From a virus, in the IMG/VR virus record IMGVR_UViG_3300020200_000017, positions 1 to 64,000 of that record: 64,000 nucleotides of DNA; one strand, given 5' to 3'. Both the position numbers and the translations under genes were made by a program. Below the pieces are notes generated by a model. The model saw only the letters and a list, made by a program, of their open reading frames with translations. It was not told the DNA's origin and did not search any database. Below are positions 4,541 through 64,000 of this stretch, piece by piece; the stretch's first letter is position 1; each line of letters opens with the position of its first letter.

Positions 4541-4564
4541 GTCCGCGTGCAGGGGGTGCTATTC

Positions 4565-10809: not shown

Positions 10810-10812
10810 CAG

Positions 10813-13805: not shown

Positions 13806-13827
13806 CTCTCGGGACCGCCCGGTGCCG

Positions 13828-21878: not shown

Positions 21879-24800
21879 CTACCTCCCAGAGAACGGAATA
21901 GTTATCGTTTGCGTCTTGCGCACCTCAATTTTACTGCCATCGGGGGCTGTCCTGTCCTTGTACAAGTATCTTAACAGGTAGGGGTGCTTTATCTGGAGGA
22001 TCTGCGGCGCACCCAGCTGCCCGAGGAGCATCTGTCCGACGAGGAGGGGTTTCGTCGGGTCCTTCTCCGAGTCCCAGATGTACAACTCGTCGAACAATTG
22101 CCTCTCAATGATGATGGGAAGTATCTGCTGGAGGTTCCACTGGATCTGTTCAACTATCCCTTCCGGCACGTGACGCCCGAACTGATCTTCCCTGTTCAGC
22201 ACCCTTTTTTGGATGACTGGCAACGGTGCGAAGAAGTAGTGGCCGACGATGTTGTATCCCTTCTTGCGCCAGTCAACCAGGTCCTGGAACCCGTCGTTGA
22301 ACTGTCCGCTGGTGTCGTACACGAGGTCAAGCCCCTCCTCCGTGGCGGCCCTCGCCATCACGGCTGCCACCTGCCGCGACTCTCGGTGCACCAGGCCGGA
22401 CGCGCTCTCCAGCCTGCGCGCGTACCAGAGCCTCGTCTCGGGCATCATTATTTTTGCGTCGTCCGGATCCGCCACGATGGCGCTGTCGTAGTTCGGTATG
22501 CCCGCCAAACCCATGTTCCTCGCCGTGGACTTCCCGGTCCCTGATCCTCCCCCGAGTATGTAGGCGGTCGGTCTCTGCTGGTCGTTGGGAATGTCGCCCC
22601 TCCTCGCCCGCTCGAGACTCAACTCCACGTACGGCCTCCATAACTGCTCCACCCGGTCCTTGTCGCCCCAGGCCGCAAACAGGTCGTCCCCGCCCCTCGA
22701 GGTGCCCACCCTGTAGAACCCTGCGGTGTCGCTGCCCTTTTCGAGGTGACTCGGCGGCATCTTGCTTTGCACCGACAGGAGACCGAGCTCGCGTGGCAGC
22801 GAATCATCTATGGGTTTGTCCGACATGCCCGCCTCGGCGCCCGGTCCGAATCTCCAGGTGGATGCGGCGACCCTGTTGCCCCACGGCATCAACGGGTGGG
22901 GCATCTTGTTCGATCCAAGGAACAGCTTCCTCCCCGTGGCCCTGCGGATGTCGTTTATCTGGGCGATCATCTTCTGGTTCCTCACCCTCGCCGCCCGCGC
23001 AAGCATCCCGAGTCTTCTGTTGATCGACAGACTCAGGTCGCCGTACGGATCCGACGACGGATCGTTCTGCAGGTTTGCGACCGCCCTTCGTATCCACTCG
23101 GCATGGCCGAAGGCGAGCCTGTGCTGGCCCGCGGCTATCTCGGAGAGAGGAACCCAGCGAGCTCCCGACGCATCCGAGGCGGCGACGAGTTGCGTGTCCC
23201 AGGGGACGACGAACATTCCGGCGCCGACCCTCACCCCGTTGACGAACCTCGGGTCCCAGTCTGGGGCTTCCATGGCGCCGAGGTAATCCGCCTGCAGGGC
23301 GTTCTCAAGGGAAACCCCCACCTCTTCGAAGGTCTCGCGGGTCGCGGTCGTCATGAGGTCCTCGCCATCGTCCTTCAATCCGCCGACGAGCGCCAAGGCA
23401 TTCCTGTACGGGCCGCTCTTGCGCGTGATCATCGCTATCTCCGCCGTGCGAAGATCCAAGTCCCTCATCCTTATCATCACGGAGTCGGCCCCCTCGACGT
23501 AGATCGCGTCCTTGTTGAAGGACCAATTGCTGGTGCTCCAGTTGATGTCGTCTTCGGTGTAGTCAAGGTTGTGAAAGATGTTGAACGGCGATCCCATGGA
23601 TATGTTGTCGGCGACCTTTCGCAGTTCCGATTCGCTCATATCGACGTCCCCGTAGACCCCCTCGAAGTAACGCCTCTGATCGACTTCTTCGGAGCGAGCG
23701 AAGTTCCCGACGATGGGCTCGATCATGTCGGCGAAGTTCCTCGCCATCCCCGCCTCGGCGTCGTCGGTCTCGTCCGGCATGTGCTCGTCGTTGTCGAAGT
23801 ACAGGCGCATGCTTGACTTCAGTTTCGTGAGTCGCGTTTGTTCCGAGTTGTCGGTCACCATCGCGTCCGCCCTGTCCATGGCGTGCCTTATCGCCCCCAG
23901 GAGGTCCGCCGGTTCCTGGCCGTTGTCACCGAAAATGAGACGAGAGTTCGTTGGGCGCACGGCGTCCGCCGAGAACGGGGATTCCCCTCCCCTGAAGTCC
24001 ACGGGGGAGATTTCATTGCTCGCCGCCATCAGTGAGTAGATGTCCATTAGGCGCTCGACCTCGTCGACCAGCTCCCCGTCGGTGGCCGTCCCCACGGCGA
24101 CCGATATGCGTCGGTCCGAGTTAAACCACATCCCGTTCGCGAGGAGTTTGTTTCGCTTGAGGTCGTCACTTCTGTCCGTAGAGTTTGTTCTGGCGCGACT
24201 TGGCGACATTCCCGCCTCCGGACTCAACGGCATTCCGCTCAAAACCCTTGCCGTAGCAATTGTCGCCTCGATGACGTCCGGGCTTATGTTCTTTGATCGA
24301 AGCGCCTGTTTCACGCCGTCGTCGTTTTCGTTGCCCCTGAGCCTGTCGTTGAGAATCGCCAGGATCAGGTCGCCGAGGTCAATGAATTCGTTGCCTCTTT
24401 GCGAGGAGGCCTTGAGTGCGCCGATCAGCGCCCGGTGTGCGGCCTTCGTCCATTTGGTGGGTTTCGGGGAGGGACCGTCCTTCGGGGTGGTCACGCCTTG
24501 GAGGGCGTTGATCATGTTCTCTACCGAGATGTTCAGTCTTCTCAGGGCCGTCAAGTACGTACCAGTTTCGGGGTGGGTCATCACATATCTCCAGGCCCCC
24601 AACAGGAGGTGTCCTGCGTTTACATCGGGCGACCCCGACTTCGCCGCGTCCTCGTAGGCTTCCACGATTGAGAAAACTGTGTCGTTGGTGAACCGGGCCA
24701 TCACCATTCTGGTCAGTGCGGACATGCCCGCCTCCGCGCCGGTTCCTCTGTCGCCTCTGTCGTAGGTCAGCTCGGGGAATCCGTTGGCGTCCAGCCATTC

Positions 24801-27800
24801 GTTGAAGGTTAAGAGCTTCGCGAATCTCTCGTCGTCGCTTAGCAGCGAGTCCTTGATCGGGTCTATCATCTCCCTCTTGTACCTCGGCAGCAAAATCCTC
24901 CGTTTGCGCGCCCGCTCGGTCGCAAGTATGAAGGGCTCCATCTCCCTGACGGCCTCGCCGAGCGTCTTGACCGACCCGTAGATGCCGCTCCGTATGTGCT
25001 GCTCGAAAAGGGTGCCCAAAGTATCCTGGGCCTCGGCGTAGTACCTGTTGTACCGGGTTAGGAATTCGCTCTGCTCGGGGGTGAGCTGACGAACATCGTC
25101 GGCGCCGTCGGCACCCGTGTGCCGTGCGATAATTCCCAAGAAAGTGACCCAACCGTCCTGGTCGTCGTGAATCTTTTCTACGACAGTCTGGCCGAATTCC
25201 AAATCACCGAACAGGGAATGGACGTGCGCGCGGGCGACCTCCTCCGCCAGCTTAAGGTGCGTCTCGTCGTTGATGGATCCGCTCTCTCGCAGGGTGTTCA
25301 GGAGTTGCTCTATGACATACATTTGTGTCTGGAAATCGGTCTGTCGCATCCCAATCCCAACCCTCATAGTGTCCAAGCCATTCTTGAACGCGGCGACCTG
25401 CCTGTATCCGATTTCCATGTTGGATCGGTGGGTCTGCAGGATGCCCTTGATCAGCGGTATCATGAAATTGTTTCTAAAATCGTTAGACTCAGGCCCGTCG
25501 GGTCTGCTCAGGATTGTGTGGGCCAAAGTCAGGTGCGGTTTTCCCCCGAACATTGTGATCACTTCGAGCGGTGACGTGATAAACATTTCTTTCATCGCAT
25601 TGATTGACTCCGAGAAACTCTTGCCCGTGACGGGGTAGATGTCGTCCATTCGGTCCAGGTCCAGCCACGGGAAGATATTCTTCAGCTGACGAAGGACGGC
25701 GTCTTTCGTCACCGTTCCCGCTGGGATCCCTTTGATGATGGGCCCGATCCACTCGTCGAAGCGGTCCAGTTCGGCGACTGGGTAGCCCATTCCCAGAAGC
25801 CGTCCAAAAGCCCTTTTGAGCAACTGGCTCGGTTTCTCCTCGACGAGCGCGGCATCCTCGAAGGCAATCATCGACGAAACGTAGTCCGCGAACTCCTCGG
25901 GGTGCATCTCCAGTATCTGATCGTCCCCGAGTTCACCGTAGGCGGATGCGGTCTCCCACCAGTACTTCCCCGGGGTCTCGTCTATCACGCGCTGCAATTC
26001 TCGTAACGATTCTCTTTCGGCGGCGAGTGCTTCGGGGGTGAGCGCTGAGCTCGCCGCGCCCGGCTCCGTGATCGGGTTTGTCTCATCGTTCCAGCCCGGC
26101 AGGTAAGGATTGCCATCCGGCCCGGAGTAGACGATGTTTGGTCCGTACATCGACCAGTACCCGTACGAGTCGACCCTTGGTCTCGCAAACCTGAACCAGT
26201 CGGTGTCGTTGTCGCCAAAAGGGTCAGACGACGTGGTGAGGGGCGTATGGAAGGGCGAGATCTTCCTCTTGTCTCGCGCGGCGATTGATTGGACAGCCTT
26301 CCTGTAGATGCTCGTGGCGAGCACGTCGGCGAGGATCCTCGCCAGAATCTTCGTCGACTCGATCATTTGCGTGGCTTGGCGCGCGGCCTCGCCACCCGAC
26401 GATGGGTACAAACTGGACCAGGCCTCGGTCGGCAGTGCCTCCATCAAGAGCAGTCCTGGTTGCTCGGCCACCTCCTGCAAGGCCTTGAACAAGGAGTCGA
26501 AGGTGAAGGCGAACACTTGGTCATCCATCTCCCTCGTCGGGATGTAGAGCGGATCGCCCAGCATTCTCTCGGAGCCCGGCTCCTCGGGGATGTTAGGGGA
26601 GGCAGTGATATACGGGTTTTTCGGCATGATACTTCCGAACGCGTCCACCATCGGTTCAACCGCCGTGTACATGCCGTAGACCCAGTTGGCCATCATGATT
26701 TGCCTCGGCGTGAGGTTGTCGACTATCTTCTTGGCCTCGGCATTTCCCTCCAGCACTGAGCCGAGCAGGAGATTGGAGAACATGGGGACGCCTTGCAACA
26801 ACGGTAAGTCGGTATTTGATCCCGCTTCCCATGCCATCGTCCCCTCCGTCGTCGATGGCGCTATTTGGTCACTCGGCTGGTCAATGGTCCCTGTCGGGGT
26901 TGCCCCGAACTTGCTTCGCAGCAGGTTCCTTTCGTCCGTCGCCGCCATCATCGGGATGAGCAGGCGCATTACTTTCTCGTCGCCCGGTTCGAACATCGGT
27001 GGAGCGTCGACCAGGTTCGGGTTTCGCATGATCTGCTTCATCTGCCATAGCTTGAGGCGCAGTTCATCATTGACGTCCTCGGGAATTTCCGGCGCGGGGA
27101 GAATGCCCGATGCTACGCCTTCAATCAGGGTGTCTGTCCCAACTTCGACTGATTCGGAGGAGATGCGGTCCGAATCAGGGGAAAGTCGCCTGAACCATTT
27201 GTCGTAAATCGCCTGGAGCATTCCCCTCAGCATCGGCATGATGCCTCTGTAGAGGCCGGTTCCAAGGAATTCTCCTCGTATCACCGATGGAACGGTGTCG
27301 AAGCCGAACAGGGGGAACGTTGAGTTCTCCTGACGCGTGGCTATATCGAAGTTCCTGAATCTCTTGGCCCGCATTTTCCCGGCATCGCCCTGCGCAACAT
27401 CGCCAAGCATCCCAATGTCCACATCTTCGGAAGCCAAGTCGTCGAGGTGATCACGAGTTGAGCCGAAAATTGCGTCGTGGGTGGTCTCGTCGCCCGTCGT
27501 GTTATCGAGGTATCCGCCCTCCAGCGCGAATGACGTCCAGAGGGATATCACCCGACCCAGCATCTGCATTCTTTCCGGGTCCTTCGCTTCGCCATCCACG
27601 CCCAAAGACGCAGGCGAGCCGGGGTTGATGAAGGGATCGGCAACGATGGCTGGTGGCATCTGAAGTTCCGGGTCCACGGAAGTGCCGTCCGCGCGAGTCG
27701 GCCTGTCCTCTCTCCAGTTGGCCGACGGGCCGTCCGACATCGGGGTGTTGTCGGGCAACCTGCGATTTGCCATTCCTGCCTCGGCCCCGCCATACGAGTC

Positions 27801-30800
27801 GTACGCATCGTCCATCCGCGCTGACCCGCGGGCCGATGCGAGTATCGAGTCGAGAGTCTTCGCGCCGATTCCGTATTTCTTCATCAGCGCTCGTTTTGAG
27901 ACGCCCGACGAAAAATCGGCCATCACTGCATCCCCGTTTTTCGCTATCCACTTCGGTGACCCGACCACTTCGGGCAGTAGTCCTTGCTTTCTGAGTTCGT
28001 GCAGGGAGTTTCGGACGGTGTTCGGGTTGAACCCGGTGGCGTCGATTATGTCCTGTTCCCTGAACCCCGACGCGGCGAGGATCTCCACGACGCCCTTCCT
28101 GCTTCGTGGCGCGATCGACGAGGCGAAAGCCGCTGCGTCCTCCTGGGTTATTTCCTCCAGCCCGATCTGGTCGTAGAAGCGATCGATCGTTCCGTCGTTG
28201 AGCAGCTCGGACACCTTGTCGGCCACGAACTGGCCGTTGGGCATCTCCGCCGCCGCCGCGAACGGGTCTGATCCTTCGTTGATGGCGGCTACGACCTCTC
28301 CGGAACGGTCCCAGGTCGAGGCGAGCCAATAGAAATTGCCGGCGTCGGCGTCCGACTGTGGGATGTCAGATGGCCACACCTCGGAGGCGGTCCTGCCGAA
28401 GGCCCGTGCCAAGCGCTCGGCTTCCGTCGGGGAAACGGCGGCGCCGTCCCTTCTGAACTCGGCGATCACCTCGAGGGGGGCGCCAAGGAACCGGCTCAAC
28501 GCCCTGTCGGACATCTGCGAAATCCCCGGCACGACGGACGCGAGCGCGGATATCTGGTTCTGGCCGTTGCGGACCATGTCGGCCCTCTCGAGGCCCCGGG
28601 AAGCGTAAATCGGACTTCTGCCGTTTGCCGTGATCAGTTGCCCACCGAAGGCACCCGTGGTGGTGTCGTTCCCCGAAATCATCCTGGCCAAGGCAGGGTA
28701 CGGCCCGTCCATTGATCCGAAATCCTCTATCTGTTTCTGCAGCTTGGACAATTCGTCGTTGACGCCCATCCTGCCGAGGGAGTTGAATGCCTCCTCCGAA
28801 CCCAGCCACGTCTGCCTGTCGCGGAACGTCATGAAGTTCCAGTCGAAGGGCAGGGGGTTGTGCATGTCCGACAGGATCCTCCTCGGGGGCGCCGAGGCGG
28901 AGATGAGCTGGGCCACGTCGTCCGACACGCCGAAGGCCACCGGGATGGAACGCGGATTCAGTCTCATCAAATTGTTGAGCGATATCGCCGAGTTCAGCTT
29001 TTGCGTCGCCCGGTCGGATGATCCCTTCGGGGTGAAAATCGAATCGAGATACAGCGGACCGAGGTTCCTGAGCTCGGGGAATCGGTTGTCCGTCATTCGG
29101 CGAACCGATGCCTCGCTGTAGGCCCCGGACAAACCCGATGCGTACGATTGGGCCATCCTCAGGATGTTGCTGGTTTTGCTGAGCAGGGTCTCCGTCGCTA
29201 TGGCGTCCGAGACGTCTTCTGGCTCCACGCCGAACAGGCGGGCCGTCGCCGACACCGGGTTGAAAATCGCGAAGTATTTGGCGTTGCGGATTGCCTCGGC
29301 GTACATCACGAGGGCGGCGTCTATGTCCGCCTCCTTGACTCCGTTGGCCTGCATGGCGTCGGCGATCCCGTCGACCATGACGTCCTCGATTATTCGCTTG
29401 GTCAGGCTGGGCAGGGAGTTGATGGCCAGCTCCGAGAAGCGCTTGTAACGAGCACCCATGATTTTCCTTGTCGTCGCGTCGGCCTCGGCGTCCGCGATCA
29501 TCATCAGGACGGCCGTGCTCTTGGCCTGCTCGATTTCGGCAGGGCTGCCGAAGCGCATCTGCGGAACGACCCTGTCTGGTTTGCCACGGCGAAGGGTCGC
29601 CATCGCCGTCCTTATGTCCGGGATGCGTTCCATCTCGTCGACGTTGACCCTCGAGAGGATTTCGTTTACTTTGGCTATCTCGGCGGCGAGTCTTTTTTCC
29701 TTCGTGGAGAGGAGGACCCTCTTGTCTGGGATTTGGATCCTTTCCGTTCCGACGATCCCGAATCTGGTGCGACCGACCGACATGCCACCAGCGGGTTCGT
29801 CCGACAGGCCCGACGGGTCATCGGCGAGGTGCGAAAGGGCGTTGTTCACTCCTCTGACCAGTCTCATGCCCGCCTCGGCGTCCCTGCCGGTTAGTTTGGC
29901 CGCCGCGCGGATCTCTTCAATTCGCTCTTCTATCTCCCCTCGTTCGATTTCGTTGATGGCCCTCGCCCTCGCGGACGCCTCAGTTTCACGGCTAAGATCC
30001 GCGATCAGGTTCGTGGCCTGGTAGATCGCTGGTTGTATCGTGAAATAAAACTTTTGAATTTCATCGACGGCCTGCTGCGGCGTGATCTCGCCACGCGCGG
30101 ACTGCCTGAAGAGCTGGTCTCGATGCCGGTTGTACGAGTCGAGTAGCACCCCCCAGGCGGAGTAGGTGGCTTGTATCCTGGCCCTGATTCTGTCCTGGTA
30201 GTTGACGCTTAACATTTTCCAGTGCTGCTCGAGGTGGCGCAAGCGCTGGTCTAGCCTGTGTATTTCGCCCCGGATGCCGCCCGTCGAGTTCAAGGCGATG
30301 TCGTTGAGCACGTTGTTGATTTTCGTGAGGGCGACGGAATTGAAGCGGGCCTTTGCCGCTGCCTGGGCCGCGGAGTACAGGGATTTGAACTGTGCGTCCG
30401 AAATGTTGTTATCCCTCGCCCACTTCCTCAATCCCGTCAGAATGGCGTCGGGGTGGAAATTGTCCCCGTCCGTGGTCTTCGCGACCGCGGCGATCTCGTA
30501 TTCGTCCATGAGATTTCCCGATGTGAACATGCCCCACCAGGACTGTCTCGCGACATCGCTGGCCTTGGCCGAGGAGTTGGCGATCTTCTTCTGCTTTGCC
30601 AACTTGTCTTTCGAGATGCCGAGATTGGCGATCGTGTTGGGGTCAGGGTAGCTCTCTAGGCTCGGGAACGGGCTTACGATGTCCGGGTCTGGGCCCAGGT
30701 CTTCCACGTCCTGCAAGAGTCGCGGCTGTTGCTTATGGAGGGGGTAGTCCGATCCGATTTTGAGGAACTGATCGGCGACTTCTCGGACCACCTTGTCGAG

Positions 30801-37821: not shown

Positions 37822-38228
37822 GGCAACTGCTCATCGGCGAACATCACCCATTCCTTGGCGAACCGGTTGTAATCGCTAGCCGTTTGAGACTTCACGGACT
37901 CTTCAGATAGGCCCGCGTCCCTGTACCCGCGGGCGATGACCTCCCGAGCAGCCTCCTCCGGCGAGTAGCCCAGGGACCTCCAGGCGCGAGCCTCAACGAG
38001 TTCTTCGGAGTACGCCTGAAGGACGGCATCAAAGGAGTCGTAGGGTTTGTTCTTTTTCACGAATTCGTCGAATTCCTTCGAGAGCACCAACACGAAGTCG
38101 TTCTCCTTAGCGTTCGTGGGGATGCTGAAGGGCGGGAATCTTGCGTCTTCGGCGACGGACTTGAAATCGTCCAGCACTTCGTGCATCTCGGCCTCGGTCA
38201 TGTGGTTTGTTTTGAATCTGTCGCTCAT
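37803..38228 (-). CDS. Hypothetical helical protein
   Basis: A 141-residue acidic, helical protein (MTEAEMHEVLDDFKSVAED, ... FDAVLQAYSEELVEARAWRS, ... EEAAREVIARGYRDAGLS). No family recognised. It begins in an ATGA overlap with the 1869-codon gene and ends 19 bases inside the next gene. The tight linkage suggests it is made with the giant proteins, perhaps as a chaperone or a partner for one of them. Confidence 0.6.
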   Translation of the reverse strand: MSDRFKTNHMTEAEMHEVLDDFKSVAEDARFPPFSIPTNAKENDFVLVLSKEFDEFVKKNKPYDSFDAVLQAYSEELVEARAWRSLGYSPEEAAREVIARGYRDAGLSEESVKSQTASDYNRFAKEWVMFADEQLPWGGLV

Positions 38229-46864: not shown

Positions 46865-46869
46865 TGTGT

Positions 46870-49626: not shown

Positions 49627-49832
49627 CGGCTATTCCAGATTTCGCGCCATTCTTCCAGATTGTCGTCGTTTATGATCGTCGGCTTCTGTTCGGGTTCGTT
49701 GACCTGCAACCAACCCCACTCGTACGGCTCGAGGGAGGAGTTCCGCACCACAACCTTGTACCACGTCGTCTGGCCGTCCTCGGACATGATGTAAAAATGG
49801 CCTCGGTCTGTAACGAAAACGCGCTCACGCAT
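49623..49832 (-). CDS. Small hypothetical protein
   Basis: A 69-residue protein, MRERVFVTDRGHFYIMSEDG and onward, strand-rich with many aromatics (TTWYKVVVRNSSLEPYEWGW). It looks like a small beta-barrel or SH3-like fold, but I cannot assign it. It sits 14 bases after the 2828-codon gene and overlaps the 918-codon gene by ATGA. Confidence 0.6.
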   Translation of the reverse strand: MRERVFVTDRGHFYIMSEDGQTTWYKVVVRNSSLEPYEWGWLQVNEPEQKPTIINDDNLEEWREIWNSR

Positions 49833-49846
49833 GGTCTTGGGTCCCC

Positions 49847-55800: not shown

Positions 55801-58333
55801 TGTTCCATCGTCCCAGCGGCGTGTCCAGGAAGTCCCTCCAGAAATTGAGTAACGGAATTCCGTGTTCATCCGTGTAGCCCCGTATCGCCAGCTCTTCCCG
55901 GATCTGCTCGAGCATTTTTGCCTGCGCTTCTTTGCTGAGGCGTTGGCCGCCGTGGCGTGGCGCCTCGTTTGCAAGCCATCTGGCGAAGGCCGATTCAACC
56001 TGCGAGTCGAACTGGATGTTGAACATGTAGAACTCCCACAGCGCCTTCTTCTTTTCGTAGGGAGTCTTCAACGCAGCGGGGTCCAATACTTGCTGTAGTT
56101 TCTCGATCTGCTGCCCGAGGTAGGACACGGGGCGATAACCAAAGATCTCTCCGCTCGCGTCCTTTTCCGCGAGCCGGACGTAGTCTCTCCCGAGGTCGAT
56201 TCGGTCTATCCACGACCCCGACGCCGGGTCGAATCTCTGGCGCGACAGCCTCTCCTTCCATTCGGCTTCTCCGTACCCCGCGGAGGAGGAAAAATACCCG
56301 AGCTTATTTCCCAGCCTCTGCGCGAAATCGTCTATGTGGCTCAACTCGTGATCGGCTGTGTGCATTAGGAAGGCTTCCCTTTTGGGGTCCATGCCGAGAT
56401 GGTCGAAGCTGAATCCTGTGAGACTGTCCTTCTGGTATTGGCTGTCGGCGAACCACTTCGGGTCGATGGTGATGGTCGCCATGAACGGCACGCTGTCTCC
56501 TGAGTTAAGCAACCACAAGGGAGTCGCTCCGTTAAGGTGGTCTAGAGGCTCCGATCCGGGATTATAGGGAAACGGGGTCATGTCGTCGAGGTGCGGGCGT
56601 TCGACGAAGCCTTCGTCGCCGAAGAAGCCGGTCACGGCCGTGATCACGGACGCATCCTTGAGATTTGAGTCGGGGGCCGCCGACCTGTCGCGCCAATGCT
56701 TGATCCGTATAAACGTCGGGATCACCTCAGCGAAGCGCTTCTTGTGCTCGGGGTTGTCGGTTCCGTCCGGCAGCTTCGCTGGGCCGCCCGTGTTCAGCAT
56801 GCCTTCCGCCGTCATGAGCATATACTCGGCGAGTCGTTCCGCCGCTTCTTTCCGTAACCTTTCCTTCGCCCTGTCCGACTTCTGGTCGAACATCAAGCCA
56901 TTATTCTCCGGGGCGTGGACTATCTGCTCGACGATCGCCTCGAAGAGGGTCAGGTCATCCCTTATTGCGCCGTTGACGACCGCGGTGTCGGCCCCGCCCA
57001 TGAAACTTCCGATGGGCCTGCGGTAAGCGTCCACCAGTGCGTTGCCCTGCGCGTCCTTGAAGGAACCCGTCCATCCATGGTGTCTAACGAACTGGTCAAT
57101 TTGCTCCCCGGGGTGCGGCGCCCTTCCCGTTCGCAACTCGAAGTCTGCGGCCCATCGCTTGTGTTCGTCGGACCCAATGAACTCTTCGAACATTCTCCGT
57201 ATTTTCTTTGCTCTCTCGGTTGCCCTTTTTTCCCGCTCTCTTTGCTTGTTCCTCGACACCAACGAACGCAGGCCGATAAATCCGAATCGCTCCGAGCGTC
57301 TGGCCGCTATCGTGTCGATCATGCCCGCGGCCGGGTCGAGGTCGTTGGGTCTGTCGGCCTCGTAGTGCGGTGTGTGCCCGCCCCTCACGCCGGTCAACCT
57401 AGCCCTCAGCCTCTCGGCAAGGCTCGGGCGCGAGCCCGGCACGTCGGGGCCGTCCGCGGCGTCGGCGAGTTTCTCCCTCGCCCCCTCGGCCCTACCGACG
57501 ATCTCGTCGACCGGACCCGGCACATCAACCACGCCCCGGACCGCCCCCACGACGTTCCCCAGTATGTTGGCTCCCGGCACGTCGCAACCCGTCCCGAAGA
57601 TATCGGTGAACCTGTTGGCATTGGGGCCCGACCCGCAACGAATCTTGTTCAGCTCGTCCTTCCACAGACCCCTGGCCCTGAGGATGGAGTCCATGACGTT
57701 CCTCGCCATGTCCCTAATCTCCCTGCCGAGGATTCCCTTCTGCTCGAAAGGGGGCATGCTCTTCGTCTCGGGCTCCGGGGCGAAGGCAAGCGCGGGGTTT
57801 ACCTCGGGCACACCCAACGCTCTCAGCCCCGCGTCGACCACTTGCTCTACCCCGTACTCATCCTGAGAGTACGAGTCGTCGTTTATGTTTTTCTCGCACA
57901 GCGTCACGCTTCCGTAACCCGGCATCATCGGCGGGAGGGGGTCCCCGACCTCGTACGACGCCGCCCAGTCGAGGAATTTTTTCGGGATGAACGGGAGCAT
58001 CCGCGCGAACGGCTCGTCTGGTAAATCCTCCCCGGGTGGTTCGGGCTCGGCGACGGGGGATCTCGATTGCTTGGGTTTCAGCGCCTTGGTCATCGCAAAC
58101 GACGCCGACCCGCCCTTGGCGGCGACCGCCGTGAGTCGCGCGTCGGCCCAGGCCGAGTTGTGCCCGGACCCGTACGTGCCCGATCCGACGTCCCTGCTGC
58201 CGTCGAGGAACATGCGGTTCCTGGCGTGATCCACGAACGCGATACGCCCGTCCTTCAGGGCATACACGAACGTCGTTCCGTGTTTTGCGACCATTTTTGC
58301 GTTGAGCGGAACGTTGAACGGGGTTGGCGACAT
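49847..58333 (-). CDS. Giant polyvalent protein, 2828 residues, two metallopeptidase-like sites and GNAT-like domain
   Basis: I place the start at ATG 58333 (MSPTPFNVPLNAK); the frame also opens at TTG 58384 inside the likely promoter. The C-x8-FTD-x5-C motif (IRCGSGPNANRFTDIFGTGC) is near residue 240. EAGM or near-variants occur at residues 335 (AAGM), 1482 (DAGM), 1519, 1696, 1863 and 2169. Segment 335-1481 has ADHELSHIDDF (HExxH at 662) and Gly-rich repeats. Segment 1519-1695 has a Gly/Ala-rich hydrophobic stretch. Segment 1696-1862 has two HTH-like parts. Segment 1863-2168 has DKYRGMGLASEF (GNAT motif A). Segment 2169-2828 has GVHEYAHLEHYK (HExxH at 2455). Likely a packaged multi-effector protein. 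Confidence 0.88.
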   Translation of the reverse strand: MSPTPFNVPLNAKMVAKHGTTFVYALKDGRIAFVDHARNRMFLDGSRDVGSGTYGSGHNSAWADARLTAVAAKGGSASFAMTKALKPKQSRSPVAEPEPPGEDLPDEPFARMLPFIPKKFLDWAASYEVGDPLPPMMPGYGSVTLCEKNINDDSYSQDEYGVEQVVDAGLRALGVPEVNPALAFAPEPETKSMPPFEQKGILGREIRDMARNVMDSILRARGLWKDELNKIRCGSGPNANRFTDIFGTGCDVPGANILGNVVGAVRGVVDVPGPVDEIVGRAEGAREKLADAADGPDVPGSRPSLAERLRARLTGVRGGHTPHYEADRPNDLDPAAGMIDTIAARRSERFGFIGLRSLVSRNKQREREKRATERAKKIRRMFEEFIGSDEHKRWAADFELRTGRAPHPGEQIDQFVRHHGWTGSFKDAQGNALVDAYRRPIGSFMGGADTAVVNGAIRDDLTLFEAIVEQIVHAPENNGLMFDQKSDRAKERLRKEAAERLAEYMLMTAEGMLNTGGPAKLPDGTDNPEHKKRFAEVIPTFIRIKHWRDRSAAPDSNLKDASVITAVTGFFGDEGFVERPHLDDMTPFPYNPGSEPLDHLNGATPLWLLNSGDSVPFMATITIDPKWFADSQYQKDSLTGFSFDHLGMDPKREAFLMHTADHELSHIDDFAQRLGNKLGYFSSSAGYGEAEWKERLSRQRFDPASGSWIDRIDLGRDYVRLAEKDASGEIFGYRPVSYLGQQIEKLQQVLDPAALKTPYEKKKALWEFYMFNIQFDSQVESAFARWLANEAPRHGGQRLSKEAQAKMLEQIREELAIRGYTDEHGIPLLNFWRDFLDTPLGRWNKDEGRFEFPYNPLTGRRDTTPFNLIDGRLGPLSGATNQPVHPRSLVPGDVDTPFGQARLDNLVSNMLHGFIGGTYAGENDYEFAAELRSHLNKQGALAEIREFLADTERNSHNLDENTFMTLVARYVGQDEVYRLYGKKAPRGSNQGFGPFDGGAPGGGGGAPGGGGGAAIGRPPILLGPGTGPTIPTVPRADDPDVPGDVPPAPDAGRLRGSGVGPDVPGTGRRGREVVIEDVDGPKPEAPPRVTGTGVKRPVRPKTDDDLVEPTVRPETDADRVSPERRRADADKGRRMRELFDDDESAVPVATVPEAPESSEIPPGRERDRLRVTEIRTQELPRSRARVSEAETRHDDALRRARRTGSDPDRGGDGDPAAWAEYRVAYEDLNEADAENNQLSRESRELEERISKNEPPALGPEGAHQGSSTEMEERNMQFLDGSSADGQIRMTNKETGETVYVNRRNREAMADLKLHGFVPTDRASKRKPTAARPDDPDNPPRTAAAHLMLVDTKNSDLARVIIYDPKNGDLRVTYKDGRVVTFKNVWYERARKAGEDDRPDDLIEALEREQFQQISRPIGRLGDDGQGSGRQTGPRKRNRGGGRFHRMVNDSGDEILISVDDGDGYYDARRDGYRDRGMVGSADAGMLGRLSRRDQEIIRRESNRFNEEWRRQDRPGIGAEAGMASGDRSRTVGRVTRGTLRDRALAKLLDKILKRTGADEETKEKVKIGLGLATAFSAGGPAGAATYVAVEAARRGGRDLAEFTIDELLKRGKIDAEQARRAMAAVDRIAPDGLPDGARRQLGRAFSEAADLFNERINTPENRRRLAEMGEGIVDSARGRAREVGRRIGRPRGDVAEAGMGLPQGEVPNEKLPARNNWFTSNKIKKGGALKAQEILNFDRLRRKNRDEQASVLGVTREIIDKMHEPDASIEPFDADRLVVSALGANPMEIFGDAWLMADKTPERRKLQNIGKLDDRDNRILEIRANGGKVQDIADELKISKQRASFLLDRALRRNERDLDSQAEAGMAGARREGGSTYGRLVRKHADVVSTKRDEIDEARRSLANAARGARHRRGQTPAEKNAIYEERAAIYWAMNKLFSGNFRLDRENAGVRDVRIRVRNSPSHVTANRNGGLRIEIPMELTSPDGKVLYGHATNFVNVNSHGDIEIEHADIVVYDKYRGMGLASEFNARNENIYKAIGARSITLKGTSSSLPDSDNPEMPDMVFQTGATHWARNGFTWQDEKSKQNFIGVIDRALRDRPEIFSTEERQRIGSLYRKGGDGKFETRATAKDLVNFESADRLFAEDGAVVHYRRDLVPPGRRDKPGLGPEAGMAEAGRAMSRADAVNAEMERRNGPALKRDTDADAKTVMAMPPPFSARDSQTLTQVTADSDALTASIAQQRKALVEKYAPGRHGEPVESYADELMDNMGVARESGWSWPGGTPMTFSEQLDQAMDYFLRTAEQDGKEDQIPDPNDSFEDRELNHMKGAAKLAALELAQTEEGRREVREAMAQGFLDVLAGAEPALEKDPSLRRATTIRMHINDKSDWRKFAGYAQTELGRDGKVKLVVTLNPTILAFDSSLFFGSDEGPLSKGQGLSEVIRFAGADDYHFGLGVHEYAHLEHYKTWYSSLGLQVGRDAPPLSEQLDGRLDKSLMGTEIARRHNFPQDATWDDVRETFAKTNPLRDPANLETHASVIEATPEEWVDVQESQKTHDISWVHLAPPLDHSMNEIVERLYRLNQVRDQRRKEGGGFTGESMRERLMETMGTAGSTRKNVSADNFSRMVDALQTYDDTAANPFAGTFPENLTEDQKRSIIARNKMPEKVGSFFLALDDNSDETKFLGPEDVRKIVTEVLEGQTPEEFLATHKRIMDQVLGYDSKFASTLGVPTDDVMRVLGRSSKYGQTNIFEAVAEARVLTLYAERFREALSVKQLQQVEEMMEMLERIIPDGSVGVAVRNLTPEAKEHFARLERMLGKVPALKLDWDSVRQ
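55295..55343 (-). repeat. 21-base tandem repeat coding for APGGGGG
   Basis: A GC-rich unit (GGCTCCCCCGCCGCCACCCG plus one base) is repeated a little over two times inside the 2828-codon gene and codes for a flexible Gly/Ala/Pro linker. Confidence 0.75.
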
Positions 58334-58383
58334 CTGCCCTTGATCCTCTATTCCCGGGGGCGGGATTTGACAATTACAAAACA

Positions 58384-58412
58384 ATTATAGACGTATAGTT
58401 GTTAGCTATCAG
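58384..58412 (-). promoter_or_regulatory. Late promoter with perfect TATAAT
   Basis: On the - strand TATAAT (58389-58384) has CTGATA 17 bases upstream (58412-58407). It lies in an A/T-rich gap of 68 bases before the 2828-codon gene, with transcription start near 58377 and a leader of about 45 bases. It is the only clear promoter seen on the - strand of the giant-gene region. Confidence 0.5.
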
Positions 58413-58605
58413 TATCGTCGTCGCCCCCTGCGGCGTGGTTCCTTGCGCTCCGGATTTCCTCCCACTCCGTCTGGGCCTCGGCGAGGAACCCGTCGTCGTC
58501 GGCGGTCGCGAAGGACGCGAGCGCCGACCCTACGGCCTCCAGGGACGACCCGGGTTCGACCACCACGAGTATGGGCCTGGTGTCGGCGGCGTCGTTGCGT
58601 CTCAT
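58402..58605 (-). CDS. Small acidic hypothetical protein
   Basis: A 67-residue protein, MRRNDAADTRPILVVVEPGS and onward, with an acidic C-terminus (GGDDDTDS). The start overlaps the stop of the 1798-codon gene by ATGA. The middle (LEAVGSALASFATADDDGFL) is helical. Function unknown. It separates two giant genes and ends in the promoter region of the next. Confidence 0.55.
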   Translation of the reverse strand: MRRNDAADTRPILVVVEPGSSLEAVGSALASFATADDDGFLAEAQTEWEEIRSARNHAAGGDDDTDS

Positions 58606-61600
58606 GCGTCCCCCCCGAAGAGTATCTTGCTTTCCCCGCCGTACGGCCAGTACTCCCTCGGCACGAGGAAATCGTGGACGGTCATCAGTTGCATCACGGG
58701 GACGTACTGGGTCAGGGAAACGTTGAACCGCCGCGAAGAATTCCTGAACTGGTTCCGTATGAGTTCCTCGATCCTCAGCTCGTCGGCCGTCGACACCCCC
58801 ACGAATTCGGGGAAGACCTGGCCCAGCAACCTTGCCCTGGCGTCGGGCGAGGCGAGCATCTCCTGCAACCTGTCATAGATCGCCCTCGCGACCGACTCGA
58901 ACAGCTCGCTGCTGTAATTGTCGAGCGTGGACGACTTGTTCTTCGTGTCCGCGCCCAGCCCCTCCAGCAGGATCTTCGACGCGAACATGCCGAGCTGGTA
59001 GTCTTGGTTGAACGCCCACTGCAAGTGCCCGTGGTAGGAGTCGATCAGATCGGCCGGACCCCTGAACGCTACGTACTCCCCGTGCCTGGTGAAACCCTGG
59101 CCCAGGTAGTGGTGGAAGAACTCGTGCAGGCCGAAATCCTCCTCCTCGCGGAGGCCCTCGGATTCGTCGTCGTACTTGCGCCCCCGGCTTATCGGCGAGT
59201 ACCTCGAGGAGAACGCCTTCACGCCCAGCCTCGCCGCGTGACCCAGCACGCTCCCCGGTTGCACCGTGGCGACTTTGAACCTTGATGCTTTCGTCCAGTG
59301 TTCGTTGACAACGAAAGCCACCTCTGCGTCCGTCAGGCCAGCCTCCCTCATCAAGTCGTAGGCGGTTTGCGCCCACTTCTTCGTCAGCTCGCCGTGTCGC
59401 CTGGCGTGGTCCAACACTATTTCCGCCTGCTTCCTGACCATGGGGGCGAACCTTCTGGAGATGTCGTCGTCTTCCCTGATTATGATGCTCTCGAAGTGCG
59501 AGGTGTTCCCCCAGGACCTGTCCTGGTAGATCACGCCAGGTATCTTCTCCTCGGCGGGGGAGAAGGCCAGCCCCGATCTGACCTGCTCCGGCAACGCGTC
59601 GATCACGGCCTTGAGGAAGTTGGAATCGCCCTCGAAGTAGCTGAACGGGTCGAGGTGCAAGGGGATGCCGATCTGCGAGGTGTCCCACAGTTTCTGGGGC
59701 AATTTTGGGCCCCCGAGTATGACATTATGTGGGGCGAGTGACGCGGATCTGAACAGGATTGCCTCGTTTACCTGGTCCGCGTTGAGGACGGAGTCGGAAA
59801 GGTACTCGGCCCTCGCCCTGATCAGGGCGTTGACCGCGTAGGCAGTCAGCAACTCGTCGGCCGTCGGGAATGTGCCGGATATTGCGTCGGCGACGGCCTT
59901 CGGGCCGATCAGCTCGTCGGCGAAGTCCCTGACCACCGGACCCTGGATCTTGGGAACCTTGTGTCCCTCCACGGGGTACGAACCGAGGCCCGCCCGGCCC
60001 AGCGCGGGCGCCAGCGACCGGATCGCTGGGTTGTCGGGTGCGAGATGGTCGATGCTCACGTGGGGGGCGAGAAGATAGGGCTTCATGATCGCGTTCCTGC
60101 CGGGAACGGTCGGGACGCCCTCGGTGTTCCTCATCACCACGCTGGTCCTGACCCCGGGCACCGAGTAGATGAGGTTGAGTTGGGCGTCGTCGTCGGTGAC
60201 CTTCCTCACGAGGGCGGACGACATCCCCGCCTCGCCGCCGAGGGCCTCGGTCAGCTTGCGTTCGCGCCGATGGCTGGTGACGATGAGGGCGCGCGTTTGC
60301 GAGGCGCTGAAGAGGCGTTTGTATTGGTTGGGGGTCAGGCCCATCGCCCTCATGATCTCCGTCTTGCTCGCCCCCCAGTTGTACATCTCGGCGAATCTCT
60401 CCGCGGACTCGGTCAGCTCGGGATCCAGGCGCGCGTCCCTTCGCCCGAACGGTTCTCTCAGGCCACGGCGTCTCAGCGAATCGTAATGGCTCATGTATTG
60501 GGCGTGGGTCAAATTCATTTGTCTCATGATTTCCGGTTTGCTCACCCCACTATTGAACAACTCGGCGAATCTTGGCTGAGATTCGATGAACCCGGGGTCC
60601 TTGCTCCTCCCCCCTGGCCGGTTGAGCTCCACCAGGCCACGATCTCTTGCCTTCCTCAGCAACCAATCCAACCTGCTTGGGGCGATTCCCAATCGGTCTG
60701 CGATGTCGGCTCGCCTCTCCCCGTCCCTGAACCTGACTACGGCTTCGTTCATTAATCTTTCGTTTTCCGGAGAGTCGTGAAGGTCGCCGGCCATGCCCGC
60801 CTCCGCTCCCGGGCCGTCGTTCGGATCCTTCGAAAGACCGCGCTGACGGTCTCTAAATTCACGGCGGAATGGCATCAGGTCACGGCGGGGATTCACCAGG
60901 CCTCGTTCGCGCAAAAATTGATACCTACGCGTGTATTCTTCAGGCGACAAACCGAGTTCGTCCATGATCTGGGACCTGGTCTTCCCCTCCCCGTAAAGTC
61001 GGAGGAATTCGTTGTCGGTGTCCGTGAGGGGCCGCCGGCCGCGGCGGCGCCGCGGGTGATCCTTAAAAAGATCGCCATAACGCAAATATTCGTAGATGGT
61101 GGCGTACTCCCGTTCCGACAAACCGAGTTCGTCCATGATCTGGGACCTGGTCTTCCCCTCCCCGTGAAGTCGGAGGAATTCCTTGTCGGTGTCCGTGAGG
61201 GGCCGCCGGTTGCGACGCCTGTCGGGCCCCTTAAAAAGACCGCGTCCGCGCAAAAATCCGTAGATGGTGGCGTACTCCCGTTCCGACAAACCGAATTCGG
61301 CCATGATCTGGCGCATGGACTTCCCCTCCCCGTAAAGTCGGACGATTTCCTTCTCGGTCTCCGTGAGGGGCCGCTGACTCGCTCCCCTACGGCGGGGATT
61401 CACCAGGCCTCGTCCGCGCAAAAATGCAGATGTACGCGCGTATTCTTCAGGCGACAGGCCGAGTTCGTCCATGATCTGGGACCTGGACTTTCCTTCCCGG
61501 CGAAGTCGGAGAAATTCGTTGTCGGTGTCCGTGAGGGGCCGCTGGCGAGACCGATCCTTGAAAAGACCGCGCTGCGACAAATATTGGTAGATGGTGCGGA

Positions 61601-63998
61601 ACTCCCGTCTCGACAAACCGAGTTCGGCCATCACCTCGGTCACGGTCTTCCCCTCCATGTAAAGTCGGACGAATTCCTTGTCGATGTTCGCGCGGAGGCG
61701 CTTCGGGCCGCGCCGCTTGGAGGCGACACCCCTAAAAAGACCGCGTTCGCGCAAAAATTGATACCTACTTATGTATTCTTCACGCGACAGGCCGAGTTCG
61801 GCCATGATCTGGGACATGGCCTTCCCCCCTCTGTAAAGTCGGACGAATTCCTTCTCGGTCTCCGTGAGGGGCCGCCGACCTTGACTCACTAACTCGCGGC
61901 TGGGATTCACCAGGCCTCGTCTGCGCAAAAATTGATACCTATTTATGTATTGTCCACGCGAGAGGCCGAGTTCGGCCATGATCTGGGGCATGGTCTTCCC
62001 CTCCCCGTAAAGTCGGACGAATTCCTTCTCGGTGTCCGACAGCTCCCTCCTGGGGCGGCCCGCGGGGCCGACACCCCGCGAAATGCCGCGCTGATACAAA
62101 AATCGGGCGACGTTCCGGTACTCCCGTTCCGATAAACCGAGTTCGTCCATGATTTGCGTTTTGGGCGTGCTCGCAAGGAGCAGCTCGGCGAATCTCTCCT
62201 CGGCGGCCGTGAGGGGCCGCAACTCCCCTGTCCAAGAGTGGCTCGTGCCTTCGGGTGCGGAACGCCTCGAGATCACTCCGGTCCGCAAGAGTTCGCTCTG
62301 CACGAGCGCGCCGTCCTCGTTGGAGATCCCGAGCCGGCGATTTATATCCCGCCACCCGACGCCGGCGTTCCACAGCTCCTTGTAGTCCTCCTTCGTCTGG
62401 TCCGGGATGTTCTCCGGCGCGCCTATCGATAGCTGGTAAACCTTTTTCGGTTTCCCGGGGACGAATGAATCCTTATCAAAGTCGGCCAGGAAGGAGCGGG
62501 ACCGACCGAAGATCTTGTCTTGCTCGGCGAGATCGAATTCCGACTCGATGAAGTCCTGTATCTCCGGGTCGCTCAAACTCATATCCGAATAATCGGGTTC
62601 TTCGTCCAGGCCCCGGAAGCGTCTTCCCATCCCGGCCTCGCCGTCGGAAGCTCCCGGGTCCAAGTCGGTGGGTTGGTAAATCAAGTCATCCTCGAGTATC
62701 GTCGGGTCCTCGAGGGCTTCGGCCAACTCCTCGAGGGTCTCCGCGTCGTCGGCGTAGCCCACCGAGTCCCAGATGGCCCGGGCGTACTCCCTCATCTTGG
62801 CGGCCGACTCCTGCCTGTCGACGTCGAAGTCCGACACCAGCTGATCGTCGTCCAACAGGCCCGTGGCGAAAAAAATGTCCTCGGCCATCATTGACCTCGT
62901 GTCCTCGTCTATCCGCTCGTACGGGTAGCCGAACTCCATCGTCCGGTCCGACTCGAACAGGAGGTCCGCAAGCTCCTCGGCGGCGATGACGACGCCGTAA
63001 ACGACCTGCATGGAGGAGTCATCGGAGTCGTACGCCAGCCCCGGCCACTCTTCCGGTCGGTCGGCGAACAGGTCGTCCCCCGTCTCAGGTCTTCGGCGGG
63101 TGACCTCGGGACTGGTCGGCCCCGACGCGGCTCCTCTGCGGTCGAATCGCGACTCGGTGGGGAACAGGCTGTACTGGCCCGTCGCGTCGCTCGCCGTGAA
63201 TCGTTGCGTCTGCTGTCTCTCCTGCCACGACGGGCCCAGCGACGGCACGTCGTTGATCGTCCCCGGGTCATTCCAGTAATCGACATTGTTGAATTTCACG
63301 CCCGCATCCTTGAGGGAGCGTTGCAGCATGAGCATGGATTCGAACTCCTCCTCGAGGCCGAAGATCTGAGCGGATCTCGTCGCCTTCCACAGCCTTATGG
63401 GATAGGCCTTGCGCCAGTCCTGGCCCTTCTCCCAGTCGATCTGTTCCAGGAAATTGGCGTCGTACAGCGACCATCCGAGGGCTAGGGCCTGAATTTCTAT
63501 CTCCCGGGCGAGGCTGGCAAGGAACTCGGGGTCCCTCCTCAGCCTCTTGAGCGGCTCCCCGGCGACGTTGAAGGTCTCCCCGTAGGCGGTGCTGCCCCTG
63601 TCGATCGGGTAGGCCCACCAATCGTAGTGATCCGAGTGTATGCGATCCCACGAGCCGGACGAGACGAGATCCTCGTGATTCATGCGCTCGATCCTCTGCT
63701 CATCCTTTATCAAGTCGTCGCCACCGTAGGAATCCGAGTAGCGAATCCTCGATGGCGGAACGGGGGAGGCCGAGACCGTCGGCGCGTTTTCGCGCGGCAC
63801 GGGTGCGGGTCGTTCGGCTGGGGCGTCGTCCCTTTCGGTCTTGCCGAATCTCCCGTCAGTCAATTTCGCCAGGAGCCTCCTGATCCCGCGGCTCTTCTCG
63901 TTCGACATGCCGGCCTCCGCGCCGCCCCCGGACCTCGCGGTCGAGGCGATTTCGAGGTCCGCATTCAGCAACGGGATCCACTCACCCGTCTGGTTCAT
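58602..63998 (-). CDS. Giant polyvalent protein, 1798 residues or longer, tandem HTH array and metallopeptidase
   Basis: The frame reaches the window edge. ATG 63998 sits in a TGATG context like other starts here, but it may be internal and the gene may continue. EAGM occurs at residues 28, 454, 1066 and 1256. Segment 28-453 is unassigned. Residues about 535-1247 are about 12 tandem units of 50 to 60 residues, each like PLTDTDKEFLRLHGEGKTRS followed by QIMDELGLSEREY and a basic linker. The array is interrupted by the EAGM at 1066, with nine units before and three after. Segment 1256-1798 has GLHEFFHHYLGQGF (HExxH at 1625), a likely zinc peptidase. Many DNA-binding units plus a peptidase suggest a DNA-associated packaged protein. 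Confidence 0.88.
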   Translation of the reverse strand: MNQTGEWIPLLNADLEIASTARSGGGAEAGMSNEKSRGIRRLLAKLTDGRFGKTERDDAPAERPAPVPRENAPTVSASPVPPSRIRYSDSYGGDDLIKDEQRIERMNHEDLVSSGSWDRIHSDHYDWWAYPIDRGSTAYGETFNVAGEPLKRLRRDPEFLASLAREIEIQALALGWSLYDANFLEQIDWEKGQDWRKAYPIRLWKATRSAQIFGLEEEFESMLMLQRSLKDAGVKFNNVDYWNDPGTINDVPSLGPSWQERQQTQRFTASDATGQYSLFPTESRFDRRGAASGPTSPEVTRRRPETGDDLFADRPEEWPGLAYDSDDSSMQVVYGVVIAAEELADLLFESDRTMEFGYPYERIDEDTRSMMAEDIFFATGLLDDDQLVSDFDVDRQESAAKMREYARAIWDSVGYADDAETLEELAEALEDPTILEDDLIYQPTDLDPGASDGEAGMGRRFRGLDEEPDYSDMSLSDPEIQDFIESEFDLAEQDKIFGRSRSFLADFDKDSFVPGKPKKVYQLSIGAPENIPDQTKEDYKELWNAGVGWRDINRRLGISNEDGALVQSELLRTGVISRRSAPEGTSHSWTGELRPLTAAEERFAELLLASTPKTQIMDELGLSEREYRNVARFLYQRGISRGVGPAGRPRRELSDTEKEFVRLYGEGKTMPQIMAELGLSRGQYINRYQFLRRRGLVNPSRELVSQGRRPLTETEKEFVRLYRGGKAMSQIMAELGLSREEYISRYQFLRERGLFRGVASKRRGPKRLRANIDKEFVRLYMEGKTVTEVMAELGLSRREFRTIYQYLSQRGLFKDRSRQRPLTDTDNEFLRLRREGKSRSQIMDELGLSPEEYARTSAFLRGRGLVNPRRRGASQRPLTETEKEIVRLYGEGKSMRQIMAEFGLSEREYATIYGFLRGRGLFKGPDRRRNRRPLTDTDKEFLRLHGEGKTRSQIMDELGLSEREYATIYEYLRYGDLFKDHPRRRRGRRPLTDTDNEFLRLYGEGKTRSQIMDELGLSPEEYTRRYQFLRERGLVNPRRDLMPFRREFRDRQRGLSKDPNDGPGAEAGMAGDLHDSPENERLMNEAVVRFRDGERRADIADRLGIAPSRLDWLLRKARDRGLVELNRPGGRSKDPGFIESQPRFAELFNSGVSKPEIMRQMNLTHAQYMSHYDSLRRRGLREPFGRRDARLDPELTESAERFAEMYNWGASKTEIMRAMGLTPNQYKRLFSASQTRALIVTSHRRERKLTEALGGEAGMSSALVRKVTDDDAQLNLIYSVPGVRTSVVMRNTEGVPTVPGRNAIMKPYLLAPHVSIDHLAPDNPAIRSLAPALGRAGLGSYPVEGHKVPKIQGPVVRDFADELIGPKAVADAISGTFPTADELLTAYAVNALIRARAEYLSDSVLNADQVNEAILFRSASLAPHNVILGGPKLPQKLWDTSQIGIPLHLDPFSYFEGDSNFLKAVIDALPEQVRSGLAFSPAEEKIPGVIYQDRSWGNTSHFESIIIREDDDISRRFAPMVRKQAEIVLDHARRHGELTKKWAQTAYDLMREAGLTDAEVAFVVNEHWTKASRFKVATVQPGSVLGHAARLGVKAFSSRYSPISRGRKYDDESEGLREEEDFGLHEFFHHYLGQGFTRHGEYVAFRGPADLIDSYHGHLQWAFNQDYQLGMFASKILLEGLGADTKNKSSTLDNYSSELFESVARAIYDRLQEMLASPDARARLLGQVFPEFVGVSTADELRIEELIRNQFRNSSRRFNVSLTQYVPVMQLMTVHDFLVPREYWPYGGESKILFGGDA
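60250..62400 (-). repeat. Tandem DNA repeat array encoding HTH units
   Basis: About 12 units of roughly 160-190 bases. The best-conserved part reads, on the + strand, CCGAGTTCGTCCATGATCTG followed by GGACCTGGTCTTCCCCTCC. Middle units (about 60900-62050) are most alike and outer units more diverged, as expected from repeated internal duplication. It is coding and not a CRISPR array: there are no unique spacers of fixed length and the frame is open throughout. Confidence 0.85.
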
Positions 63999-64000
63999 CA

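Follow-up and report, generated by a model that had tools for sequence, protein, structure and literature searches.

The first 64 kb of the 78,965-base IMG/VR virus record IMGVR_UViG_3300020200_000017 (these 64,000 nucleotides are the window analysed here; the record is called G000) carry, from 20 kb on, a series of minus-strand genes whose last member encodes an HK97-type major capsid protein (20210-21544; Pfam Phage_capsid E 2e-42, phrog_10 E 2e-59). The order of the series is p3783, p661, p2160, p2845, p918, two short genes, p707, p1869, two short genes, p4972 and the capsid gene. Three of its members within the window are giants that we regard as probable polyproteins: p4972 (4972 amino acids (aa); 21879-36797), p2845 (49847-58384) and p2160 (58602-64000 in the window, with a GTG start at position 65084 of the record, past the window end). 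The large open reading frame (ORF) p1869 (38225-43834), the operon member p707 (43824-45947) and p918 (46870-49626) lie between them on the same strand, and p3783 is a further giant beyond the window. Our subject is a short peptide, most often EAGM, which recurs through these proteins, and the peptidase that may cut there.

EAGM is the top over-represented tetrapeptide of the head-region proteins. It is found in frame 21 times in those of the record, against 0.31 expected from composition and 0.43 under a first-order model; the expectation of 6.5 under a second-order model is high because that model already holds the enriched triplets. The head region, with 19,020 aa, has 25 occurrences of the pattern [EDNSQ]AGM, whereas the 6,049 aa of the rest of the record have none (ORFs of at least 100 aa were counted here and in the comparisons with relatives). 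A first-pass annotation of the window had listed 19 EAGM positions, 10, 4, 4 and 1 in four proteins. All 19 are indeed in-frame EAGM codons of the minus strand and the counts per protein are right, but its 1798-residue protein with four copies is the 2160-residue ORF cut by the window edge, and two of the listed positions (29865 and 44646) look coincidental, which leaves 17. Two more copies are in the part of p3783 that the record covers, and three more lie upstream of the record end. The motif is also broader than EAGM and is better written as xA[GA]M, with forms such as DGPMAAM, GASAGM and DGPLAGM, and order-promoting residues are scarce around the 33 candidate sites (0.179 versus 0.263).

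Relatives were found by their capsid protein, which gave 363 IMG/VR stretches, the best 80 of which were kept. Three of them, G004, G005 and G006, encode homologous giants in the same order, G006 being cut inside the first giant. Nine protein sets were aligned between these three and G000, and seven were used to count site positions. Of the 21 EAGM of the record, 20 can be aligned with G004, 20 with G005 and 14 with G006, and the relative's own motif falls within 3 columns at 16, 16 and 8 of these, while random columns pass the same test at rates of 1.0%, 1.1% and 0.5%, respectively; leaving out the copy in p707, which is hit in two relatives, these counts become by arithmetic 15/19, 15/19 and 8/13. 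The motif itself is mostly D/S/N-AGM in G004, EAGM with some S and D in the first position in G005, and TASM together with VASM in G006. The flanks of the sites are less alike than average (0.40 versus 0.47), and gaps among G000, G004 and G005 lie near 18 of the 21 sites versus 55% of random columns. Confinement to the head region is common to these genomes, with 25 motifs in it and 0 elsewhere in G000, 30 and 0 in G004, 27 (19,715 aa) and 0 (18,012 aa) in G005, 12 and 0 in G006, and 18 and 2 in the record G013. The first-pass annotation had proposed a search of related genomes for EAGM spacing that is kept while the sequence between diverges, and this is what the alignments give: site positions are mostly conserved and flanks have diverged. 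It had also named relatives without EAGM at the same borders as evidence against its reading; EAGM is in fact often replaced, but at most positions another version of the motif stands in its place.

The individual sites, all on the minus strand, illustrate this. The ten EAGM of p4972, nine of which look true, are joined by two variants. From the N-terminus, MAAM at residue 521 (35226-35237; MAAM/DAAM/MAAM/VAAM in the four homologues) is followed by EAGM at residues 708 (34665-34676) and 873 (34170-34181), both of which are DAGM in G004 and EAGM in G005, and at residue 1091 (33516-33527; SAGM in G004, EAGM in G005). The EAGM of residue 1722 (31623-31634) corresponds to NAGM/DAGM/TASM in the relatives. 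At residue 2308 (29865-29876) the relatives have QTRM/DARM/DDRM, so that this EAGM is probably coincidental, and the AGGM close to it at residue 2336 (29781-29792), aligned with NAGM/DAGM/TASM, is by the alignment the probable real site. The remaining EAGM copies are at residues 3006 (27771-27782; relatives DAGM/MAGM/TASM), 4022 (24723-24734; NAGM/DAGM/VASM), 4194 (24207-24218; SAAM/EAGM/TASM), 4348 (23745-23756; SAGM/EAGM/TASM) and 4655 (22824-22835; NAGM/EAGM/TASM, with ISGRM at the equivalent place in G013).

In p1869 the only site is a DGP-MAAM variant at residue 395 (42641-42652), which is SAGM in G004 and G005 and has nothing aligned in G006, and in p918 it is a DGP-MAAM variant at residue 123 (49249-49260; relatives LAAM/MAAM/FGSM). 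The single EAGM of p707 (44646-44657; one of the three relatives has EAGL there, the other two EAGM) is probably no site, because it lies inside a conserved ungapped stretch. p2845 has an AAGM variant at residue 352 (57320-57331; relatives MAGM/AAGM/VASM), a possible DAGM variant at residue 1499 (53879-53890) and EAGM at residues 1536 (53768-53779; SAGM in G004, a gap in G005 and G006), 1713 (53237-53248, in a very gapped alignment), 1880 (52736-52747; SAGM in G004 and G005) and 2186 (51818-51829, where two relatives have LTRI). In p2160, finally, EAGM is found at residues 390 (63906-63917; DAGM in G004, EAGM in G005, a gap in G006), 816 (62628-62639; relatives EAGM/EAGM/TASM), 1428 (60792-60803, facing gaps) and 1618 (60222-60233; EAGM in G005, TASM in G006, none in G004).

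Beyond the closest relatives the motif changes as a set. The versions met with are [EDNS]AGM, TASM, ISGxM/ITGxM, GSM, LSSG and GF[AS]S, and they stand at corresponding places wherever homology permits the comparison. Several are, like EAGM here, strongly enriched in their own genomes: TASM in G006 occurs 10 times versus 0.2 expected, LSSG in G021 23 times versus 0.33 and R.SSG in G022 24 times versus 0.25, and an unbiased search for enriched four-residue patterns returned ISG.M in G013 (18 versus 0.14) and R.SSG in G009 (19 versus 0.48). In G010 other repeats ranked above the motif, which is visible there with a fixed pattern only. When 20 further records were put through the pattern search, a motif of this kind ranked top in 16 and second in two (G039 and G019). 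Counts of fixed motif classes over 24 records give a nearly diagonal table, with one class clearly dominant in 22 and strays of up to 3; G039 is split between two overlapping patterns and G019 has just 4 copies. It should be noted that the classes were fixed after the pattern scans and that the records are partly close copies, not all of them independent. Placed on the capsid tree, the 26 records with a class require 5 changes of class, and TASM-bearing G006 groups with EAGM-bearing G005 (Shimodaira-Hasegawa-like approximate likelihood ratio test, 86%). That so many sites in several proteins change in concert argues for one trans-acting reader of the motif. A link with the capsid cut site is hinted at: tallied by hand over the same 26 records, the 13 of the LSSG class have LSSR (11) or LTSR (2) at the capsid N-arm, whereas the 13 of other classes never have LSSR there and have LTSR in two. 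It is no more than a hint because the LSSG-class records form a single clade in the capsid phylogeny.

A candidate reader is encoded at the head of the same series. A scan with the start of p3783 led to another contig of the same phage (L179), identical over the 2 kb compared and extending upstream, in which the ORF of the first giant continues for 1,076 further codons to 4,872 from stop to stop. Its N-terminus is a Peptidase_S78 domain (PF04586; residues 27-178, E 8e-11, 42.9 bits versus a cut-off of 21), which also matches phrog_80 (E 2e-28) and TIGR01543 (E 2e-12, 47.3 bits, under that model's cut-off of 59). The profile search of G000 itself for Peptidase_S78 was negative because the contig end cuts the first giant. 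The extended ORF holds, in addition to the protease, a Pro-rich stretch and the three additional EAGM mentioned above, and it is preceded by an ORF for a portal-MuF fusion. The fusion is widespread. S78 is within ORFs of 4,384 to 4,740 residues in G004, G005 and G009, and of 45 further records 29 have S78, 17 of them within ORFs of 1,938 to 4,203 residues. Altogether the domain was detected in 33 of 52 IMG/VR records (G013 was in both searches, some records are close copies, and records with no match may be fragments); in 20 of the 33 it belongs to a giant ORF of at least 1,900 aa, and in the other 13 to ORFs of 558 to 896 residues. WGH and EWSIGY, which we take to hold the catalytic His and Ser, are present in all 31 aligned domains, 15 of which had been chosen with a loose pattern around that Ser. 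Identity between the domains ranges from 62 to 100% with a median of 73%, and the nearest matches in culture come from phages of Gordonia and Brevibacterium, whose proteases are separate proteins (about 39-42% identity over the protease part).

A second element common to the giants is a block of the form DADLDxxVxEGxPxxNxGRGxPDPTPG, present exactly or as a close variant in five of the six. It stands near the start of p4972 (NPFTAIDADLDGLVLEG..GRGIPDPTPG, 36336-36434), p1869 (about 43013-43114), p918 (about 49381-49482) and p2160, and in the extended ORF of p3783 at about residue 530, after the protease; p2845 gave no match to the pattern. When seven records were scanned for it, five yielded 15 blocks in total and G009 and G010 none; seven hits of another form (DGDGxIxDGTP and DHDMDGIIFEGTP) are not included in this number. 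The next motif, by a loose pattern, follows within 75 residues of the block in 9 cases and farther away in 6. A search of the cultured-phage collection with one copy of the block (60 aa) gave no hit even at an E limit of 1. Head proteins of T4 have targeting sequences, and by analogy the block is probably a head-targeting tag. A related block, DHDMDGIIFEGTP, is also seen in a 601-aa protein encoded just after the capsid gene (18267-20072), which ends in a repetitive Pro-rich C-terminus.

Cutting at the 33 candidate sites in the six giants, as far as the record covers them, would yield 39 units of 37 to 1,472 residues. Most units gave no family match; those that can be recognised include a Nudix protein, a zeta-toxin-like kinase and, in p3783, units of DnaQ-type exonuclease, helix-turn-helix (HTH) and sigma-like type. 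The first-pass annotation had described three domains of p4972 as exactly bracketed by EAGM. For the 307-aa unit with a Nudix domain (22827-23747; Pfam NUDIX E 3e-10) and the 315-aa C-terminal kinase unit (21882-22826; Pfam Zeta_toxin E 2e-19 for the whole protein) the domains are borne out, while the Clp-N-like character of the 172-aa unit (24210-24725) is weak: Pfam Clp_N does not match this segment, and in a phmmer search of PDB at E up to 1 Clp N-domain chains make up 13 of 14 hits, the best at E 0.009. The Nudix and kinase stretches recur in G013 with 34% and 31% identity. In p4972 the two stretches adjoin, whereas in G013 about 850 aa containing four motif copies separate them, and ISGRM directly precedes the kinase there as EAGM does here, which we read as modular exchange at the sites. 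In p2160, residues of about 1030-1610 (window about 60.2-62.0 kb) consist of tandem HTH-like repeats, many with ELGLS, that match many HTH Pfam families and look like a multi-HTH DNA-binding array. A smaller protein, p316 (36871-37821), has its own gene here, and its homologue lies near the N-terminus of ORFs of 3,464 and 3,918 aa in G013 and G010; p316 and the start of p4972 have DUF3721 in common (below the Pfam cut-off).

We consider it probable that these giants are head-cargo polyproteins and that an HK97-type prohead protease, carried on one of these same chains, cuts them at the motifs. Under this model the giants would enter the prohead by their N-terminal tag; S78, residing in the first giant or, in other lineages, in a smaller protein, would then cut both tag and linkers, the N-terminal block possibly being removed at the first site, and cuts at the xA[GA]M linkers (mostly EAGM) would release dozens of units that stay with the DNA and are later injected. 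The motif would be read in trans, and the copies in one genome would for that reason change together. Location in the head region and the N-terminal block are what points to the putative delivery of the giants with the DNA. The proposal of the first-pass annotation, a head-packaged polyprotein cut at domain borders, thus draws support from the positions in relatives, the set-wise change of the motif and the fused S78, cleavage itself being an inference. The annotation had further applied to it the rule of phiKZ-like phages, cutting after Glu. This part finds no support. Relatives carry D, N, S, M or T at aligned sites where this phage has Glu, or an altogether different motif, and Glu-directed cutting was rejected on these sites; the protease is of HK97 type, whereas A-x-E cutters are T4/phiKZ-type enzymes. 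Because E varies in this way while A-G/A/S-M is constant in the nearest relatives, we favour on comparative grounds a scissile bond after the G, S or A ahead of Met in the xA[GAS]M classes. A wider version of the model holds that the polyprotein strategy is clade-wide in this group of tailed, mostly uncultured phages and that the fused protease and its sites switched specificity together several times, giving an orthogonal protease/linker series with, in this phage, six chains (about 17,600 residues), some 35 candidate sites and dozens of injected effectors. We lean towards this version as well, with less assurance.

Several observations weigh against cutting by S78. Two of the 20 further records, G028 and G020, have no class motif though S78 is present. 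No xAGM stands out at the N-arm of this phage's own capsid protein. The protease domain of this phage is 66-75% identical to those of SSG- and SGxM-type records; with a domain so conserved and motifs so widely different, specificity would rest on few residues. Residues beside the catalytic ones do vary with the motif class (M/L/Q/E before EQEWS, D/N/S after WGH), and since the class follows the capsid tree this link is not independent evidence. At four of the sites listed above (residues 1499, 1713 and 2186 of p2845 and 1428 of p2160) nothing is aligned in G004, G005 or G006, and an AlphaFold model of residues 3990-4972 of p4972, with a mean predicted local distance difference test score of 37, is unusable for domain borders. 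In addition, at least one HExxH is found in 19 of the 20 further records as well as in G000, G004, G005 and G006, and this leads to the main rival, in which the giants' own zincin-like metallopeptidase units process the motifs and S78 matures capsid and scaffold only. HExxH is nearly as widespread as S78 and occurs here in p918 (as a zincin-type HEFGH), twice in p2845 and in p2160; zincin processing has been predicted for polyvalent proteins (PMC5512222, in the part accessible to us), and G020 lacks both class motif and HExxH, although G028 has HExxH with no motif. None of these proteins matches a metallopeptidase Pfam family, NCBIfam gives just a weak M6 match (E 0.018), and the HExxH stretches sit in units between sites, while S78, being fused to a giant in 20 of the 33 records that have it, has obvious access. 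We think zincin processing unlikely. That the motif is left uncut and serves as a docking or packaging peptide, for example for a lineage-specific head or scaffold protein, loading each unit into the prohead, is quite unlikely in our view. A short repeated peptide limited to the head region would suit it, and lineage specificity is what any trans-acting partner predicts, but the separate N-terminal block already resembles a targeting signal, and gappy, order-poor sites with units inserted between them in a relative are better explained by cleavage.

The codons bear on two other readings. Glu in the EAGM of this record (window 22824-63917 and beyond) is encoded by GAG in 21 of 21 cases versus a background of 63% (p about 5e-5), which puts GAGG ahead of ATG, and a Shine-Dalgarno-like tetramer precedes 23 of 36 motif Met codons versus 97 of 418 other Met codons. 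This would fit internal translation starts, GAGGCNGGNATG being a Shine-Dalgarno-like stretch plus ATG from which each unit is made separately too. In relatives the tetramer is lost and the peptide kept (5/46 in G004, 6/40 in G005, 0/14 in G006), GAA is more frequent than GAG in G005 (12 versus 6 at [EDNST]A[GS]M sites), and the LSSG-class records examined in detail have no fixed Met in the motif; on the relatives' codons internal starts were rejected, and we hold them to be very improbable. Apart from the GAG bias of this record, codons at the motif differ both within and between records, and the earlier claim that selection acts on the peptide and not on the DNA thus holds across relatives, but not here for the uniform Glu codon. 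Least credible of all is a functionless scar of gene fusion or recombination, made of old start codons with copied linkers. The Met that ends the motif in several classes and the small residues that follow it do resemble protein N-termini, and p316, separate here, is fused in G013 and G010, but scars would decay independently, whereas the copies in each genome share a new sequence in varied codons.

Among known systems, polyvalent proteins (PMC5512222) come closest in the portion of that paper available to us: they too are giant multidomain chains believed to pass into the cell along with the DNA, zincin units are frequent in them, peptidase release of their units is predicted, and an analogy with RNA-virus polyproteins is drawn. 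The giants described here likewise combine several unrelated effector-type domains per chain (Nudix, kinase, DnaQ, HTH, sigma-like and HExxH). However, assemblin-like peptidases are described there as always C-terminal, whereas S78 is N-terminal here, and the available portion describes no repeated cutting signal, while here there is one with lineage-specific versions. Cultured phages with the same S78 family, Brevibacterium phage Cantare (gp13) and Gordonia phages GMA6 and Gray, have its gene directly before a homologous capsid gene, but their proteases are stand-alone proteins of 417, 484 and 455 aa, while in our phage some 4,700 additional residues are fused to the domain. The letters of the motif cut in phage SPN3US are reportedly A-x-E. 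According to the accessible text of PMC10052503, the SPN3US head protease cuts 14 sites in nine packaged proteins, some propeptides being cut several times, at a three-residue motif (P3-P2-P1), and 13 of the 14 cuts remove N-terminal propeptides. SPN3US and phiKZ thus share with our case a phage head protease, many packaged substrates and a short motif; the difference is that here many candidate sites would separate units within one chain, the enzyme is of HK97/S78 type and Glu is not essential. As far as the text of PMC5512222 and PMC10052503 was available, neither describes a repeated, lineage-specific cut signal between units or an N-terminal S78 fusion. PMC7689252, also available in part, applies the word "polyprotein" to a phage polymerase fusion, and among the open-access papers looked through (not all print, and partly as titles and beginnings of abstracts) we found nothing on point for phage polyproteins and no paper on Acidimicrobiia phages and their prohead protease.

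Picornaviruses and retroviruses make polyproteins in which one chain contains an embedded protease and repeated cut sites. The phage giants would work like these polyproteins of animal RNA viruses, here in a double-stranded DNA tailed phage with an assemblin-like protease, and we know of no relation between the two. If the model is true, tailed phages load and release head cargo by the polyprotein logic of RNA viruses, and the site motif becomes a simple guide for dividing the many giant phage proteins that are still anonymous into their real units. The question of what these phages inject into the cell could then be tested one protein at a time, and the motif shifts around a conserved protease core would offer ready material for work on the evolution of protease specificity.

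Some features of the phage and its relatives remain to be described. The C-terminal tail that ends the head protease of Gordonia phage GMA6 occurs twice in p661 (65097-67082 of the record; L001:5097-7082), with 61% and 42% identity; p661 is perhaps a scaffold, and xAGM was looked for in it and not found. Streptomyces phage Gilgamesh gp48 (4,624 aa) and Cantare gp11 and gp12 were examined and have no such motif, and a scan for relatives of p918 gave just two contigs, both identical to this phage. The cultured-phage matches of the C-terminal 2,999 aa of p4972 are confined to Bacillus phage G (two records) and cover 5% of the query; the protein matched is gp273, a MutT/Nudix protein with 29.6% identity to the Nudix unit (residues about 4430-4580). 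As to the host, the labels of seven metagenome-assembled contigs are mixed, naming Actinomycetota, Acidimicrobiia, Phycisphaerae (two), Gammaproteobacteria (two) and Verrucomicrobiales. Outside the head operon, genes for a single-strand binding protein and a C5 cytosine methylase lie at 15060-17062 of the window, and the phage record also carries a tmRNA gene (tag ANKQFALAA; 13426-13806) and a tRNA-Arg(CCT) gene (10736-10810).

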